Virus record (IMG/VR): IMGVR_UViG_3300046009_006870
Span: 1-23,093 of that record
From: a virus
Strand: one strand, 5' to 3'
Length of the DNA: 23,093 nt
Shown here: one piece after another, positions 1,626 through 18,604 of the stretch
Numbering within the stretch: position 1 is the first letter of the stretch
How the letters are laid out: every line of letters starts with the position of its first letter
The notes under the pieces: model-generated
What the model saw: only the letters and a program-made list of their open reading frames with translations
Database searches by the model: none
What the model was told of the DNA's origin: nothing
Position numbers and translations under genes: made by a program

Positions 1626-2855
1626 ATGAGTAACCCTTCTTTTTGGAATGCTTTTTTCGGAACACCTATAAATAATAATCAACTTAGGGAAATAAATACC
1701 CTATTAGATACAAATAGAGCATATCAACATGACTTCTATGGTAAGAAAGTGCCTATCTGGATGAATACTGAAAAACCATTTCAAGCATACGTTGAAATAC
1801 CAGAATTAAGAACTGTTGTCGATAAAAAGGCTCAAATGCTTTCACAAGGTCGTCCAAGGCTTGTAAAAGAGGATGGAACGGAAGTAGAAAAACATTGGGT
1901 ACTTGATTTGATTAAAAATCCTAATCCAATGCAAACTTGGCAAGACGTTATGTATTCTATATCTGTAAATGATAGTTTATTTTCAACTGCTTTATGTTAT
2001 GCGCCAAGAAGAAGTTTCGGAATAGTTAATTTATTTGTTCCACTTGCTAGACATAAGGTTCAAATCAATACTTCGGGTCGTACTCTTAAACAAATGGATA
2101 AAGGTGGTCTTATTAAAGATTATACTTATAACTATGAAGGTGAAAAGCCAGAAACATTAACAAATGAAGAAGTTGTTATCATTCAAACTACGGATGGTGT
2201 TAATATTTTAGATTCTATATCAAGAATTGAGTCTTTAAAGTACCCATTATCTAATATTAAGGCACAATACAATAAACGTAACATACTTTTAGAGAACATT
2301 GGTGCTATTGGTATCTTATCTGCTTCAAACTCTGACTTAGGTGGTGCTTTACCAATGAGTCCAGAAGAAAAAGAACAAATACGTAAAGATTGGTATAACA
2401 GAAGTAAAGATGAGATTATTATTTCTGAAAACGATGTTAAGTGGACACCAATGTCTTATCCCACTAAGGATTTAATGTTGTTTGATGAACTTAAAGCTGA
2501 TAAACTTGCTATTATAGACGCTTTTGGTCTTAACTACTATATTTTCTCTAATGAAAGTGGTTCGACTTACTCCAACGTTAATTATGGTGAGAGATTGTGT
2601 TACACTTCTACTATCATTCCAGAAGCTGAAAGAATTTACAATAATATTACTGAACAATTAGGATTAGATAAAGAAGGATTGAGATTAGTTGCTGATTATA
2701 CTCATTTACCAGTTCTACAGAATGATATACTTCAAGAAAGTCAATCTATAGATTACAGAGCATCTGCTTTAATCAAAATAGAAAATGAAATAGGAATTAC
2801 TTTAACTGATGATGAAAAAAAGATATTCCTTGGATTGAAAAAAGGAATTAAATAG
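1626..2855 (+). CDS. HK97-type phage portal protein, inverted relative to its neighbours
   Basis: A 409-aa protein starting MSNPSFWNAFFGTP. It has the organisation of HK97-family portals: an N-terminal aromatic segment, a helix with ELRTVVDKKAQMLSQGR (about 49-65), then LIKNPNPMQTWQDVMYSI, which resembles the 'L...PNP.M...' region of portals, and a late segment NYYIFSNESGSTYSNVNYGE. Portals form the dodecameric DNA gate of the head. A TTG 27 nt upstream keeps the frame open, but the ATG at 1626 fits the promoter spacing better. It is the only confident plus-strand gene in the window, and is followed by its own terminator. Confidence 0.85.
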   Translation: MSNPSFWNAFFGTPINNNQLREINTLLDTNRAYQHDFYGKKVPIWMNTEKPFQAYVEIPELRTVVDKKAQMLSQGRPRLVKEDGTEVEKHWVLDLIKNPNPMQTWQDVMYSISVNDSLFSTALCYAPRRSFGIVNLFVPLARHKVQINTSGRTLKQMDKGGLIKDYTYNYEGEKPETLTNEEVVIIQTTDGVNILDSISRIESLKYPLSNIKAQYNKRNILLENIGAIGILSASNSDLGGALPMSPEEKEQIRKDWYNRSKDEIIISENDVKWTPMSYPTKDLMLFDELKADKLAIIDAFGLNYYIFSNESGSTYSNVNYGERLCYTSTIIPEAERIYNNITEQLGLDKEGLRLVADYTHLPVLQNDILQESQSIDYRASALIKIENEIGITLTDDEKKIFLGLKKGIK

Positions 2856-2877
2856 GTATCATACTACCTTTATTTTT

Positions 2878-2908
2878 AAGACTCGACTAATAATCGGGTC
2901 TTTTTTTT
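2878..2908 (+). terminator. Rho-independent terminator of the portal gene
   Basis: The stem GACTCGA (2880-2886) pairs with TCGGGTC (2894-2900), with one G-U, across a 7-nt loop, and eight T follow. It lies 25 nt after the portal stop codon. Confidence 0.85.
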
Positions 2909-2915
2909 GTGCATT

Positions 2916-2952
2916 AAAAAAGCCCTCAAGCCAAATAAATAGCGAGAGGGCT
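2916..2952 (-). terminator. Minus-strand terminator downstream of the large terminase
   Basis: On the minus strand AGCCCTC pairs perfectly with GAGGGCT (plus 2946-2952 and 2921-2927) across an 18-nt loop, followed by six T. It insulates the convergent terminase and portal genes and would also end the small transcript proposed from 3015. Confidence 0.85.
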
Positions 2953-3009
2953 GAAAAAAGAATCAAAAGTAGTTAGCACCGAAAGAAAAGAAAGAAAAGC
3001 ACTAATAAC
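2916..3009 (-). ncRNA. Candidate small RNA between terminase and portal
   Basis: A promoter at 3015-3042 fires into a stretch with no ORF that ends at the terminator at 2916-2952, predicting an RNA of about 95 nt. The RNA has a pyrimidine-rich middle made of repeated CTTTTCTTT units and a 3' terminator hairpin. A weak 5' pairing AGTTA/TAACT is possible. No known RNA family is recognised. It could instead be only an extended 3' UTR of the terminase transcript. Confidence 0.4.
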
Positions 3010-3014
3010 TTGCA

Positions 3015-3042
3015 CAAATATACTCTTTTTTTATATATCCAA
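3015..3042 (-). promoter_or_regulatory. Promoter at the 3' end of the terminase gene
   Basis: The minus strand has TTG (3042-3040), a 17-nt spacer, then TATATTTG (3022-3015), a strong match to TTG-N17-23-TAnnTTTG. The -33 box lies inside the last codons of the large terminase, and no minus-strand gene follows before the terminator. Confidence 0.55.
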
Positions 3043-4467
3043 CCTTTTAAATAAAGATTTAATTAACATTGATAATCCTGCTAGACAATCTGGAGCATCA
3101 TCATTTTTCATTTTACCTTCCTTACTAAAAGATAGTAGGTTTGTCATAAACTGGTGATAATCGTTGTTATTCTCATATTTTACGAAAACAAAGGCATTAT
3201 TTATACTTGCAGATTGCATAATTATTCTAGTCATTTTATTTTGTGTGTTATGCACTTGTAAAATCTTCGTTCTAGTTTGTTTTTGAAGTGTTCTAGCAAA
3301 GACCGCGCCCATTGCGTTACTTTCTACGCGACAATAAGACGTTCTGTATCTATTTAACTTCTCTGCAATCAAAGGAATAGTTACATCGGTATTATTTTTG
3401 TTAAAACAATAATCTGCAATGTAAATTGTACCATCAATAATAACAGCAAGTGCCATAGCTGTGTAATCTGCACCTTGGTCTGATACATCGACGTAAGCAA
3501 TACTTCCTGCACTTCTACCCTTGATAAGATTAAAGTCTGCTTCACTAATAGTACGTAAGTTAGAGAATAAACGACCTTTTAAATCGACTGGTTCTTGCAT
3601 ATACTCCGCACTCCAAATATCTGGATTGATTTTCTTACGAATCATTTTATATTGCTCTGTAGACATTACATCAGCACAAAAAGTTTCTTCATTCGCATCA
3701 AGTGCAGGAATAACAATAGATTCATCATAACTACCTTCTTGAAAATTCTTACCTATAACATCGTTTGTCGACCATCTTGTACCAATATCAATCTTAGCAC
3801 ACGTTCGTTCAAGACGTGAGTCGTGAGTACCTTCTTTCCATTGTAAAACTCTGTCATTGGTAACATCAGATAGTGCATCTTCAATACCACGATACAAGTC
3901 ATCGGTAATAGCAAGTTTTGTAGCACCAAAACCGATAATTGTTCCACCTACACCAGCACCAAAGTAACCTACTTGACGAGATTGGTTAGTATTCCAACCA
4001 TTAAGGTTTGCTTTATCATTGGAAATAGTTACTTCTGGAAATACGGAGTTAAACTTTTCTGATTTTAACACTTGACGTACATCGTAAGAGAACTTTTGAT
4101 ATAGAGTTCCAGTACAAGTATTACGCATAACAGATTCAGAAGGATTCCTACCTAAAGTCCAAGCACAGAATAATGTTGTTATATATGATTTTCCTCCCCT
4201 TGGTGGAACTGATACAGATAAGGAGTTAATCTTACCTTCCTCGATTCTTTGGAAGGCTCTAGCGACACGTTGTAAGAATTTACGTTTAAGAAAAAAGTCT
4301 TTATCATAAAACTTACAAAACTCCCAGAAATCATCTTTACCTAACTTGGCTCTAAGATGGTATTCCAGAACTTTCTTCGCTTCTTCCTTCGTCGCTATCT
4401 TCTGTTCCTGCTCCGAGTGCAAGTTCTTGTTCTCTAAAGTAGTCTGGTTCGTCATCGTCATCGTCAT
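3031..4467 (-). CDS. terL: Terminase large subunit
   Basis: A 478-aa DNA-packaging motor with an N-terminal ATPase and a C-terminal nuclease. Walker A is PPRGGKS (88-94). Walker B is LAITDD (185-190). The RNase H-like nuclease shows YVDVSDQGADYTAM with Asp327, RVESNAMG with Glu382, and NDDAPDCLAG with Asp residues at 456-460. The N-terminus reads MTMTMT because of an (ATGACG)3 repeat, giving three possible in-frame starts (4467, 4461, 4455). All of them overlap the end of the small-subunit gene by more than 100 nt in another frame. It is the last gene of its operon. Confidence 0.92.
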   Translation of the reverse strand: MTMTMTNQTTLENKNLHSEQEQKIATKEEAKKVLEYHLRAKLGKDDFWEFCKFYDKDFFLKRKFLQRVARAFQRIEEGKINSLSVSVPPRGGKSYITTLFCAWTLGRNPSESVMRNTCTGTLYQKFSYDVRQVLKSEKFNSVFPEVTISNDKANLNGWNTNQSRQVGYFGAGVGGTIIGFGATKLAITDDLYRGIEDALSDVTNDRVLQWKEGTHDSRLERTCAKIDIGTRWSTNDVIGKNFQEGSYDESIVIPALDANEETFCADVMSTEQYKMIRKKINPDIWSAEYMQEPVDLKGRLFSNLRTISEADFNLIKGRSAGSIAYVDVSDQGADYTAMALAVIIDGTIYIADYCFNKNNTDVTIPLIAEKLNRYRTSYCRVESNAMGAVFARTLQKQTRTKILQVHNTQNKMTRIIMQSASINNAFVFVKYENNNDYHQFMTNLLSFSKEGKMKNDDAPDCLAGLSMLIKSLFKRLDI

Positions 4468-9978: not shown

Positions 9979-10239
9979 TTTACACAAAAATAATTCATTT
10001 ATTTTCATTTCAATTGATACTCAACTAATTACACTTAAAAATAGTTACTTTCTTATTTGTATAAATGTACGTGTACACGTGTATAAAACTATTTTTTAAT
10101 TAAACAAGTCTTTTGTAATATTTATTTTTTATTGATTGGATTGGATTATTATATAGAATGATTCTAAATAATACTTATTGCCTTATACTGGTGATTTTGA
10201 TTCTGTATATACAAAAATGGAAATTCTGAAAAAGCTAAC

Positions 10240-10370
10240 GCTATACCATTTTTTGGAGATTGAAAATTCTGGAGGGCTATACAAAAATTCTGAAATTGAA
10301 AAAACTATACGATTTTTACTATACCAAAAATCTAAAATTGAAAATTCTGGTGAGCTATACCATTTTTTTT
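10240..10370. repeat. Degenerate CTATAC repeat array
   Basis: CTATAC occurs at 10241, 10277, 10305, 10319 and 10355. A longer unit of ATTGAAAATTCTGG plus a short spacer and GCTATAC repeats at 10259-10282 and 10337-10360 (24 bp, about two mismatches, offset 78), and GCTATACCATTTTTT repeats at 10240 and 10354. No open reading frame explains the repetition. The array ends 12 bp before the 3' end of the HNH gene. Confidence 0.65.
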
Positions 10371-10382
10371 AAAGTGAAACTA

Positions 10383-10886
10383 CTACTCTTTAATAGAATC
10401 TAAGTAATTCTTTAACGCTATTTGATAAGCATTACTCGCTTCTAATTCATCGTTAAAAGCACCTAATCTTTTGTGTTTTCCATCTATACGTATGTGAGAA
10501 ACCCACTTATTTTCAAACCTATTCCAACATACACCTCTATAATTACTAGAGTATTTACCTTGAGTTTTGCATGTATTTTCTCGCTGTGTAATTAACTGCA
10601 GATTCTCTAATGTATTATTTAACTTATTATCATCTATATGGTCTACAACTATTTTATGTCCACAAGGGACATGATTTAGAAATGCCATAGCTACTAATTG
10701 AGATGTTTTCATAGATTTAGAAACAGCATCTTTTGATAAGACTACATGTACATATCCGTAAGGATTAGTGGCAGGTTTTAGTATTTTCTCTTTCTTCTGC
10801 TTGTTATTTCCTAACGATTTAACCCTTCCAAGACTACTAACTTGATAAATACCTTCATAATTCGGTATATCTTTCCATATTTCCAT
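10383..10886 (-). CDS. HNH homing endonuclease with NUMOD4 and AP2 domains
   Basis: A 167-aa protein. NUMOD4 is at the start (MEIWKDIPNYEGIYQVSSLG, 1-20, then RVKSLG). The HNH nuclease has the core VDHIDDNKLNNTLENLQLIT (about 93-112), and a C-terminal AP2-like domain has YRGVCWNRFENKWVSHIRID. These enzymes are free-standing homing endonucleases common in phages. An ATG at 10928 would add 14 residues, but the NUMOD4 domain normally begins at the internal Met, so 10886 is chosen. It is preceded by a terminator, its own promoter and a structured leader. Confidence 0.88.
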   Translation of the reverse strand: MEIWKDIPNYEGIYQVSSLGRVKSLGNNKQKKEKILKPATNPYGYVHVVLSKDAVSKSMKTSQLVAMAFLNHVPCGHKIVVDHIDDNKLNNTLENLQLITQRENTCKTQGKYSSNYRGVCWNRFENKWVSHIRIDGKHKRLGAFNDELEASNAYQIALKNYLDSIKE

Positions 10887-10891
10887 AAAAC

Positions 10892-10969
10892 AAAAAACCC
10901 CATCAATCGGAAGTCGCAGGTTCGTCATGATAGGGAATTATAAAATTTCTTAATGTATCTGCGACAATA
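10892..10969 (-). ncRNA. Structured leader RNA of the HNH gene, pseudoknot plus terminator
   Basis: Read 5' to 3' on the minus strand: arm A GTCGCAG (10965-10959), terminator 5' arm CCCTATCA (10935-10928), arm A' CTGCGAC (10919-10913) within the terminator loop, terminator 3' arm TGATGGGG (10905-10898), then six T. A pairs perfectly with A' (7 bp). The terminator arms pair over 8 bp with one G-U, so the pairing is complete only in minus-strand RNA. The order A-T-A'-T' makes a pseudoknot, or two alternative structures as in an attenuator. It lies between promoter and start codon. The same topology recurs at 18514-18604. Confidence 0.6.
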
Positions 10970-10974
10970 CAGTA

Positions 10975-10982
10975 CAAATATA
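10975..10982 (-). promoter_or_regulatory. Promoter -7 element of the HNH leader
   Basis: TATATTTG on the minus strand, ending 10 nt before leader arm A, so the RNA would begin almost at the stem. There is no clear -33 TTG. The upstream side is occupied by a terminator. Confidence 0.6.
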
Positions 10983-12751: not shown

Positions 12752-13242
12752 TTAATTGCTAAATTATGTTTCTCAATTATCGCACAACCTTCAATAGTTA
12801 TTCCAGATTGTAATGCTTTTTTGATTGCTGTTTTATCTGCTGTTTCAGTAACCTTTACCGATTTAAATTCTTTTGGCAAATCGTTTGTATCACAAAACAC
12901 TTCTACAGAACTATTTTTACGTGTTGAAAATGTAAAGAATCCAGAAGTAAACGTACCAAAATTCTCAACTGCTTGCAATAAGTAAGATTTTAAAATGTCT
13001 ACTGCTTTTTCTTTTTGCTTTTTTAAGGCTTGCAAACGCTTTATTTCATTATCAATAGCACTAAGATATGCTTCTTGACTTTTAATCACGTGAACATAGT
13101 TTTCTGACTTAACAATAAGTTCTTCCTTGTTAATTTGTAACCCTTCCTCTAACTCTGGAGTTAATACTCCTTCACATTCTTCAATTTCTTGCATTAAACT
13201 TCTGTATTCAGCAGTTATAGCATATAAACTTTTATTTTCCAT
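12748..13242 (-). CDS. Siphovirus Gp157-family protein
   Basis: A 164-aa protein with the Gp157 layout: an N-terminal helical part (LYAITAEYRSLMQEIEECEG), a long coiled coil around residues 58-93 (DNEIKRLQALKKQKEKAVDI), and a C-terminal beta part with FSTRKNSSVEVFCDTNDLPK and a final GCAIIEKHNLAIK. The family was named from a Streptococcus thermophilus phage and linked there to phage resistance. In recombination modules it commonly accompanies ERF/RecT-type annealing proteins, as here. Confidence 0.8.
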   Translation of the reverse strand: MENKSLYAITAEYRSLMQEIEECEGVLTPELEEGLQINKEELIVKSENYVHVIKSQEAYLSAIDNEIKRLQALKKQKEKAVDILKSYLLQAVENFGTFTSGFFTFSTRKNSSVEVFCDTNDLPKEFKSVKVTETADKTAIKKALQSGITIEGCAIIEKHNLAIK

Positions 13243-16458: not shown

Positions 16459-17451
16459 TTAAAATGGAAATTGAATCCCTTTGTCAGGGTCGTTAATAAT
16501 TCTTTCTGGTTCATTCTCTCTAACTCCTGCTTCGTAGAAACTTGCTACTGGAGGATATTTTGGTATTGGAAGTTCTACTGGTGCTTGGCAACTTGTTTTA
16601 GGGTGCTTAATGCAATCTATACCTCCACACTTAAATCCGTTTGCAGAATTGTAGTTAAACATTATTGGTTTTTCAAGCATTGTTTGACTTCCACCATCAT
16701 CCGTATCTTTAACTTTTTTAATTTCCACAAGTGTTTCAAACTTCATTGTTTCACTACCAATAAGTCTGTGAATTATAATAAAATCATCTGCTTTATTTGA
16801 AAATGCTTTACCACCTTCAATATCATCTTTAAACGGAGGTGTAATATGTCCAGCCCATGTATGTCCTTGTGGATATACAGCTTGTCTACGTCCACTTGCT
16901 GTACTTGGGTGAGCATTTATGTATATCGTAGCGTTAGTAGTCTTACAAAACATTTTTAAATCATTTAAAACATCGTAATTACTAGAATAAGATAAAGCTG
17001 TTTTTAATCCATTGAAAGGGTCGATTAAGTAAGCATCCGTTTTACTTGTTTTAAACACCTCTAATAATTCCTCTGGAGTATATCGTTTAAGATTATCTAC
17101 AAACTTAAAATGGTGTTCAATTTTCATTATTCCTACTTGTAATTCAGAATTTGTAAGTTCAGTTATCTTTCTTCCGAAATACATTCTAATCAAATCTCTC
17201 ATTGCTTTTTGTGCTGAATTTTCATCCATAAACAAAGTGAATGTAAGATTGTGATTAGTTGCTAGTGCAAGAAAATACCATAACATCCAGTAGGATTTAC
17301 CTACGTTATCATGTCCAAGTATAAAATTTAATTGACCTCTTTTAAATCTTAAATAATCATCTAAGTAAATACCTAATCCAAGCCCTTGTGGTATTTTACC
17401 GTCTCTGTAGTCAAATAGGTATTTAGTGCTATGTCCGTCTTTTAAAATCAT
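16459..17451 (-). CDS. RecA/DnaB-like replicative ATPase (helicase)
   Basis: A 330-aa protein with a RecA-fold ATPase core. Walker A is GHDNVGKS (46-53), Walker B YLIDPFN (141-147, Asp144), and a motif-3-like YINAHPST (177-184) follows. Before the core is an N-terminal ~40 residues. The C-terminal ~60 residues carry four Cys or His (GGIDCIKHPKTSC) and Pro-rich segments. It lacks the large N-terminal domain of cellular DnaB, like phage single-domain helicases such as RepA-type or Cas-type replicative ATPases. It follows directly after the initiator gene with a 4-nt overlap. Confidence 0.82.
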   Translation of the reverse strand: MILKDGHSTKYLFDYRDGKIPQGLGLGIYLDDYLRFKRGQLNFILGHDNVGKSYWMLWYFLALATNHNLTFTLFMDENSAQKAMRDLIRMYFGRKITELTNSELQVGIMKIEHHFKFVDNLKRYTPEELLEVFKTSKTDAYLIDPFNGLKTALSYSSNYDVLNDLKMFCKTTNATIYINAHPSTASGRRQAVYPQGHTWAGHITPPFKDDIEGGKAFSNKADDFIIIHRLIGSETMKFETLVEIKKVKDTDDGGSQTMLEKPIMFNYNSANGFKCGGIDCIKHPKTSCQAPVELPIPKYPPVASFYEAGVRENEPERIINDPDKGIQFPF

Positions 17452-18266
17452 AATTTCCCCATTTGTTTGTAAACACTATAAACATATTGGTCTGTTACAA
17501 CTTCACCATCTGCTGTTGTGCCTAAAACATCAGACTTATTACTAACTTGACCTTTCATTTTTAATTTAAAAACATTCCAATATTCAATACCTTCTTGATT
17601 CTTCTTCCTTAGCTTTAGAATACTTAAAAAATTTGTTTTCCAGAAATCATCGTTTTTAATGTATCTTACAATTTCACAAATTTCTTTAAAAGTTAAACCA
17701 TCAATTCTGTTTAGCTTATCAATACAATCTAACCATTTATTTTTTGCAGATTCAGTTTCTGGTTTAGTACCATCAAAAAATTGAACTAAATAATCAAAGG
17801 CTTTAAACACATCCTGCGAAAATTCATTTTTCGTAGAAGAAGGATTATCTTCTTTTCTTTTCTTTTCTTTTCTTTTCTCTTCTGTATTACTATCGTAATT
17901 CGGTCGTAATACGGTCGTATTACTATCGTTATTCGTTCCTAATACTATCGTATTACGTTTAGCCCACCTCTTTTCTACTGATTCTCTGGCTTTTACAGAT
18001 TTTTCTAAGGCATTTTCAAACTGTTCATCTAAGAAATAAATTTTTATAAAACCACCAACTTCTTTAATCACTTTTTTAGATAAAAGATTTTTATAATTTA
18101 CTTCATCACATTCAATAATTGCATCTTCAATAGAAAGTTTAGTTTCATTTATCCAGTATAAACAACATAATTCCATAAATGAAGATTTAGCTTCTGGAGT
18201 ACATTTTTGAATTTTTCCCATCTTCCATTCAGAAATAGAGAATTTAAACCATTGCATTTTTTCCAT
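17448..18266 (-). CDS. Phage replication initiator / helicase-loader-like protein
   Basis: A 272-aa protein. The N-terminal ~100 residues (WFKFSISEWKMGKIQKC, then KSSFMELCCLYW) resemble DUF1376-like winged-helix domains of phage replication proteins. Residues about 105-145 form a low-complexity linker containing an 11-aa repeat (NTIVLGTNNDS / NTTVLRPNYDS) and a Lys/Glu/Arg block (EEKRKEKKRKED). The C-terminal part (FDYLVQFFDG to YWNVFKLKM) resembles helicase-loading domains. The linker DNA consists of iteron-like repeats, as in lambda O. The ATPase gene follows with 4-nt overlap. Initiation at its own gene is inferred. Confidence 0.78.
   Translation of the reverse strand: MEKMQWFKFSISEWKMGKIQKCTPEAKSSFMELCCLYWINETKLSIEDAIIECDEVNYKNLLSKKVIKEVGGFIKIYFLDEQFENALEKSVKARESVEKRWAKRNTIVLGTNNDSNTTVLRPNYDSNTEEKRKEKKRKEDNPSSTKNEFSQDVFKAFDYLVQFFDGTKPETESAKNKWLDCIDKLNRIDGLTFKEICEIVRYIKNDDFWKTNFLSILKLRKKNQEGIEYWNVFKLKMKGQVSNKSDVLGTTADGEVVTDQYVYSVYKQMGKL
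17850..17880 (-). repeat. Polypyrimidine (TTTTC)5 tract in the initiator gene
   Basis: Five perfect TTTTC units on the plus strand (17853-17877), flanked by further TC. On the coding strand it is an A/G tract. The strand asymmetry and adjacency to the 11-bp repeats resemble the A/T-rich part of a phage origin. A pentamer tract is also prone to slippage. Confidence 0.85.
17889..17954 (+). repeat. Six tandem 11-bp iteron-like repeats, candidate origin
   Basis: Six consecutive 11-bp units: ACTATCGTAAT (17889), TCGGTCGTAAT (17900), ACGGTCGTATT (17911), ACTATCGTTAT (17922), TCGTTCCTAAT (17933) and ACTATCGTATT (17944). The core TACTATCGT recurs at 17888, 17921 and 17943, so spacing is 33 and 22 bp, on the same face of the helix. 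The fifth unit is the most diverged. They lie inside the initiator coding sequence and encode its 11-aa repeat. Confidence 0.8.
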
Positions 18267-18268
18267 AA

Positions 18269-18469
18269 CTAATCTAATAAAGCAATTTGTTTACGAAGTT
18301 CTTTAGATAGCTTAATAGCCGTAAACTTATCTAGTATTACACCACAAGTTTCGTGTTCTTGATTAAAATCATCATGATTAACTATTACAATTTCAATTCT
18401 TTGATTGTTCGCTTCTATTTCAATAAAATCTTTTGAAATTAATGCGCATTTAAATTTTAAACTTACCAT
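18269..18469 (-). CDS. Hypothetical protein, 66 aa, first gene of the replication operon
   Basis: MVSLKFKCALISKDFIEIEA, then NQRIEIVIVNHDDFNQEHET, and KFTAIKLSKELRKQIALLD at the end. A beta-rich first half and a C-terminal helix. No family recognised. It starts about 45 nt after a terminator and no promoter is visible between, so its expression probably depends on read-through of the structured RNA upstream. Confidence 0.6.
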   Translation of the reverse strand: MVSLKFKCALISKDFIEIEANNQRIEIVIVNHDDFNQEHETCGVILDKFTAIKLSKELRKQIALLD

Positions 18470-18513: not shown

Positions 18514-18604
18514 AAAAAAGCCAAGCTAACGAAGGCGCGTAGGAAAACCTTGTTGCTTGACTTTGTGTTATAAAAAATGTTTTTCGGAGTTTCCTACGCT
18601 TCGA
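18514..18604 (-). ncRNA. Structured RNA before the replication operon, pseudoknot plus terminator
   Basis: Read 5' to 3' on the minus strand: arm A CGAA-GCGTAGGAAA (18603-18590), terminator 5' arm AAGTCAAGC (18563-18555), arm A' TTTCCTACGC (18546-18537) plus TTCG (18533-18530), terminator 3' arm GCTTGGCTT (18526-18518), then six T. A and A' pair over 10 bp without mismatch, plus 4 bp beyond a 3-nt bulge. The terminator arms pair over 9 bp with one G-U. The promoter places the 5' end at the first base pair of A. The order A-T-A'-T' is the same pseudoknot topology as the HNH leader. Confidence 0.65.

Follow-up and report, generated by a model that had tools for sequence, protein, structure and literature searches.

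The window analysed here is a stretch of 23,093 nucleotides (IMG/VR virus record IMGVR_UViG_3300046009_006870, positions 1 to 23,093). On its minus strand lies a homing endonuclease gene, preceded by a promoter element and a short leader RNA with the following parts, given from 5' to 3'.

10982-10975, minus strand: -7 promoter element TATATTTG, read from the sequence
10954-10971, minus strand: P1, the 5' hairpin, a TGTAT/ATACA stem with an 8-nt loop TGTCGCAG (RNAfold and the 27-leader alignment)
10971-10967 and 10958-10954, minus strand: P1 stem strands TGTAT and ATACA
10965-10959, minus strand: A, the kissing sequence GTCGCAG inside the P1 loop
10935-10928, minus strand: B, 5' strand of the terminator stem P2, CCCTATCA
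10906-10927, minus strand: upper part of the P2 hairpin, with a UGA/GAU internal loop, the P3 stem GAA/TTC and the apical loop (RNAfold and the 27-leader alignment)
10919-10913, minus strand: A', the kissing partner CTGCGAC in the terminator loop
10905-10898, minus strand: B', 3' strand of P2, TGATGGGG
10897-10892, minus strand: U-tract of six T, read from the sequence
10383-10886, minus strand: NUMOD4-HNH-AP2-like homing endonuclease of 167 aa, true start at 10886 (Pfam NUMOD4 9e-16, HNH_3 4e-9)

TATATTTG fits the Bacteroidota -7 consensus TAnnTTTG (PMC7366714), and its TTT is invariant across the 27-leader alignment. It is followed by a short spacer and P1, and an A/T-rich linker joins P1 to CCCTATCA. 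Between the P2 strands the minus strand reads TGAC-GAA-C-CTGCGAC-TTC-C-GAT, and a gap of 5 nt separates the U-tract from the ATG at 10886. A 181-aa ORF from ATG 10928 was rejected as the HNH protein, as it would cross the terminator and the NUMOD4 domain, which begins with MEIWKDIPNYEG at 10886, fits the later ATG. The whole RNA therefore precedes the coding region.

In the RNAfold prediction for the window RNA, the only helices are P1 and those of the terminator hairpin, which has a small upper stem, and both loops are unpaired. The folding energy of this RNA alone was ordinary (z -1.2), so the case depends on comparison. A and A' are complementary over 7 bp. This GTCGCAG-CTGCGAC pairing, the terminator stem and the six T had been described in an earlier note on this DNA and were confirmed, all on the minus strand; what the note overlooked was the P1 hairpin around GTCGCAG and the GAA/TTC flanks of CTGCGAC. 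Since GTCGCAG sits in the P1 loop and CTGCGAC is flanked by paired GAA/TTC, the pairing is one of two kissing hairpin loops. A plain H-type pseudoknot, the structure first assumed, was dropped once covariation in P1 and P3 was seen.

The same note had pointed to a second RNA at 18514-18604. It has the same order of arms and the same promoter element, and it stands before a replication operon.

18617-18610, minus strand: -7 promoter element TATATTTG of the second RNA
18514-18599, minus strand: second RNA overall, its U-tract ending at 18514
18599-18590, minus strand: A of the second RNA, GCGTAGGAAA
18564-18555, minus strand: B, AAAGTCAAGC
18546-18537, minus strand: A', TTTCCTACGC
18526-18517, minus strand: B', GCTTGGCTTT
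16459-18469, minus strand: replication operon behind the second RNA (PHROGs)
18269-18469, minus strand: 66-aa ORF of the operon
17448-18266, minus strand: DnaD-like helicase loader (PHROGs)
16459-17451, minus strand: primase/helicase-like protein (PHROGs)

The flanks of A' pair here as AAGG/CCTT, and the P1 stem is weak. The counterpart of this RNA in locus L133 retains the A:A' pairing through paired changes (GCGTGAGAAA/TTTCTCACGC). Scanning both window strands for the order A-B-A'-B'-T-run returned exactly two places (10892 and 18514), both behind TATATTTG. In 150 dinucleotide shuffles of the window the mean was 0.03 matches, and no shuffle gave two matches or one with the promoter. In 70 terminase-selected phage loci, the promoter was present at 8 of 12 matches, compared with 5.6 matches in shuffles, none of them with the promoter. 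A promoter-anchored scan of 12,985 promoter-like sites brought 61 real and 3 shuffled sites to the strict cut-off. The scan thus bears out two copies of one topology in the window. Their description as independent is doubtful: in locus L139, the leader at the site corresponding to 18514 shares 85% identity with the L145 HNH leader, which ties both window copies into one family. The two look like distant members of it.

Related leaders were collected with the pattern TTTGN{3,9}TATTGTCGCNGATAC, which specifies the end of the promoter and the P1 hairpin and nothing else. It returned 27 stretches, from which 3 unrelated ones were dropped. In the 24 P1-selected leaders retained, the loop base N was always opposite CTGCGAC when it was A and always opposite CAGCGAC or CAGCGAT when it was T, the CAGCGAT variant giving a G-U pair in the kissing helix. 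The terminator stem of these leaders is highly divergent in sequence and its pairing is always kept. In the 27-leader alignment, P1 was 97% paired with changes on both sides at 4 of 4 modelled pairs, P3 was 97.5% paired (both-side changes at 3/3 pairs), and the kissing helix was paired in 94.7% of cells (both-side changes at 5 of its 7 pairs). The covariation score of 0.43 compares with 0.19 for shuffled and at most 0.25 for slid controls. P2 reached only 64% in this alignment due to a register shift introduced by MAFFT. On this comparative evidence, compensatory changes maintain the structure in related phages.

We built a covariance model that describes P1, P2 and P3 and leaves out the loop-loop pairing; it matched 59 places. 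All 30 distinct loop pairs were complementary over at least 6 bp, whereas loops taken from different RNAs were complementary in 6%. In 80 loci chosen by HNH homology, each of the 19 distinct full-length model matches kissed (19/19). Many training leaders had first been found via complementarity, and we therefore place the weight on the pattern-selected and homology-selected sets. The second window RNA is too distant in sequence for the model to match. The model found no match in 667 kb of terminase loci and one marginal match only in 685 kb of chromosomal HNH loci. A model search of 395 Bacteroidota genomes and 199 from one other phylum returned nothing, which is weak evidence as only 10-21 candidates per genome were scored; an exact pattern had one match, probably by chance, in the 395 Bacteroidota genomes.

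A start codon (ATG) follows 0-17 nt after the model end in 59/59 matches. NUMOD4-HNH genes stand behind the majority of them; others precede GIY-YIG genes (with NUMOD3 in L245) or HNH_3 genes without NUMOD4. Replication genes are also found: the O-like/primosomal protein of Polaribacter phages P12002L/S (gp44/gp43, annotated as primosomal protein), a replication initiation protein in L236 and a DUF3987/Prim-Pol helicase-primase in L249. Flavobacterium phage FCV-1 carries copies before the HNH gene gp61 and before gp52. Leaders of GIY-YIG and NUMOD4-HNH genes are 85-89% identical while the proteins are unrelated. In viral loci fetched by protein, most closer homologues of the HNH protein have the structure directly before the gene; most distant homologues lack it, and many of these belong to phages that do not have this type of promoter. 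The kissing loops differ among the leaders of contigs that carry at least two (L245, L249, L231, L232, L236, L241, L223; few cases). Two outcomes had been named in advance as refuting the proposal of a common regulatory device, namely homologues that keep the protein and lose the pairings, and a topology seen in no other phage. Neither occurred, as homologues keep the pairings with compensatory changes and many phages carry the topology, including the cultured Polaribacter and Flavobacterium phages. The proposal is supported to that extent, and regulation itself remains an inference.

Members of the same HNH family can also be preceded by a second, different class of leader. It is an H-type pseudoknot that contains an inner hairpin, in many cases around TTAATTA, and has a U-rich third loop. 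The 3' strand of its second stem is repeated just before the ATG, e.g., TTTAAACGCA...TTTAAACGCA, and looks as if two registers could compete. This class lies directly before HNH genes in L149, L150, L155, L159, L161, L170, L174, L183, L184, L216, L221 and L251, and occurs in L140 at 13075-13186 (P12002L gp22) and before gp33 at 28031. The L150 example had no Rfam match.

In two relatives of the window phage (L013 and L007), the HNH gene and the RNA are both absent at the same place. By this comparison, the promoter, the RNA and the HNH gene form one cassette directly after the upstream terminator. On the 3' side of the HNH gene, positions 10160-10370 of the window hold A/T-rich degenerate repeats GGTATAG...CAGAATTTTCAATTT, which are also present at the empty site of L013. 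A hot spot lies at window 2855-3030, between the terminase and the convergent gene whose end is at 2855. In the relatives compared there (L006, L008, L010, L011, L012, L014, L015, L016), this gap is occupied by HNH-like sequence, by a further HNH gene and its own RNA, or by RNA elements, and the window itself has only terminator-like hairpins.

The terminator signature was examined across 50 distinct leaders. Directly 3' of P2, an average of 5.3 of the first six bases are T, 98% of leaders have four or more, and the stem is 77% GC at its base and 35% at its top. Some of these leaders had been selected by a scan in which T-runs raised the score, and they contribute to the statistic. As a signature only, without transcript data, the intrinsic-terminator criterion (GC-rich stem base, immediate U-run) is met. 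The U-tract is weak in a few related leaders (L076, L079, L087, and FCV-1 at 35876). In L076, L079, L087, L154 and L162, the leader before the HNH gene has a bulged terminator stem, fully paired arms of 11-14 bp and a weak U-tract.

As in a classical attenuator, a terminator lies between promoter and start codon. No competing antiterminator was found: the best helix between upstream sequence and B' was -5.3 kcal/mol vs. -5.0 in shuffled sequences, and P2 is approximately -14. The leader is therefore not a classical attenuator, and the switch step is left without a visible second state. In L011, L012, L016 and L021, a variant with fully complementary loops precedes ∼290 nt of noncoding DNA and no gene, which argues for action at the level of transcription and not of translation. 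This noncoding stretch (L012 2780-3060; L016 ∼1400-1720; L011 ∼3160-3470, minus strand; L021 5400-5660) lies between convergent genes directly behind the kissing-loop terminator and is conserved among L011, L012 and L016. In L012 it has a fold z of -2.3 and no Rfam match and is possibly a structured phage RNA.

The structure, its covariation, the terminator signature, the promoter element, the start-codon position and the sharing across unrelated genes are established computationally. The U-tract and GC-base signature, the lack of an upstream competitor and the variant before noncoding DNA favor a kissing-loop terminator that works as an attenuator. With moderate confidence, we propose that the HNH mRNA has this RNA as its 5' leader and that the leader is a promoter-proximal, kissing-loop transcription attenuator of new architecture. 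Transcription would start a few bases before P1, and RNA polymerase would next make the A/U-rich linker and then the intrinsic terminator hairpin. The apical loop of the terminator sits on a short stem, with a tandem G-A internal loop beneath, and is predicted to form a kissing helix of 7-8 bp with the P1 loop. In the putative default state, docked P1 would aid folding of the terminator and most transcripts would stop just before the start codon; if docking failed or was blocked by a phage or host factor, polymerase would read into the gene. With the same device at the head of the replication operon (18514), expression of the endonuclease may coincide with DNA replication, a time at which homing would be useful. 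Termination in vivo, the favoring of termination by docking, and a trans factor or condition as the switch are all inferred, there being no transcript data. The device probably controls when the downstream genes are switched on, its regulation, direction and trigger being likewise inferences.

The start codon lies consistently close to the U-tract, and this would also suit translational control, for which T4 gene 32 is a precedent. The kissing fold by the start codon would then set 30S access or bind a repressor, and the U-tract would be an A/U-rich ribosome landing site. We consider this unlikely, although more likely than the other rival readings. It fits the 0-17 nt spacing in 59/59 model matches, and T-even-like phages are known to have RNA hairpins ahead of the start codons of homing endonucleases, which control I-TevI, segB and mobE by masking the ribosome binding site of early transcripts (PMC2988022). 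The T4-type elements are likewise RNA structures directly before the start codon of a phage homing endonuclease. However, they consist of one hairpin, whereas here a first hairpin kisses a second one that is a terminator, and unrelated endonuclease families and replication genes have the leader in common. A hairpin that sequesters the ribosome binding site in the T4 manner was rejected because the U-tract and the ATG lie outside the P1, P2 and P3 stems. Translational control also has against it that a GC-rich stem base followed by a U-run is the signature of a terminator, that spacing between leader and gene reaches ∼44 nt in the 18514 group, and that L011, L012, L016 and L021 have no gene behind the leader.

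It is improbable that the terminated RNA itself is the product, i.e., a phage small RNA of ∼80-90 nt stabilized by the kissing fold, with the gene expressed by leak-through. Its own promoter element, its own terminator, a compact conserved fold and some copies of the fully complementary variant without a gene behind would suit such an RNA, but a gene follows immediately in 59/59 model matches, and the loops, the likeliest part to pair with a target, vary freely while staying mutually complementary. We give still less credence to an mRNA stabilizer or general expression element, in which the 5' hairpin and kissing fold block ribonucleases and the U-tract terminates inefficiently. P1 does start within a few bases of the inferred transcription start in nearly all leaders, but this leaves unexplained why a terminator stem with its U-run should stand immediately ahead of the start codon. 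Chance or a compositional artefact of the A/T-rich phage genome, which the unremarkable single-sequence energy (z -1.2) would allow, is excluded by the shuffles, the covariation and the gene association, and retains virtually no probability.

No Rfam 15 family, including guanidine-II and HEARO, scored above its gathering score in the window and 20 loci, and a permissive Rfam search gave chance matches only. An IscB/HEARO-type guide RNA of the HNH protein was rejected, the protein being NUMOD4-HNH and a near-identical RNA standing before GIY-YIG, with relatives before replication genes. A literature search found no published description of a kissing-loop leader. A DNA similarity search of phage records with two leader queries gave no match, due to a family held by structure more than by sequence.

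The trp, T-box and terminator-riboswitch systems place a promoter, a leader and an intrinsic terminator ahead of the coding region, and the order is the same here. Unlike in those attenuators, no antiterminator was found and there is no leader peptide; the conserved part is the pairing of a loop with the terminator loop. In plasmid copy control (ColE1 RNA I/RNA II with Rop; the IncI repZ pseudoknot), loop-loop helices of ∼7 bp govern replication functions. The phage leaders share a loop-loop helix of ∼7 bp and the tie to replication functions, but their two hairpins are part of a single short transcript, with a terminator as the second. The guanidine-II riboswitch (mini-ykkC) also consists of two linker-joined hairpins, which kiss through short ACGR loops, whereas the loops here are at least 8 nt, pair over 7-9 bp and vary in sequence. 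A further system open to comparison is the HK022 put-type antitermination RNA, where the nascent transcript causes polymerase to disregard later terminators. The purpose of the leader is of a known kind and, as far as these searches show, the architecture is new.

A wider reading is put forward only tentatively, as possible and short of probable: a new class of phage riboregulator, in which intramolecular kissing between a 5' hairpin and a terminator controls a regulon within one phage (the replication operon and several mobile endonucleases), one trans factor or signal is read by all copies, and the leader has spread as a timing cassette for endonucleases. Because the kissing loops vary yet keep their pairing, mutants and compensatory mutants would be a direct test. 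If true, the finding would describe an RNA family not described before, with a clear structure, a gene context and cultured examples (Polaribacter phages P12002L/S and Flavobacterium phage FCV-1), and would add a terminator governed by loop-loop pairing and not by a competing helix. Bacteroidota hosts do not rely on Shine-Dalgarno sequences, and the leader would show how selfish endonucleases in Bacteroidota phages hold their expression in check.
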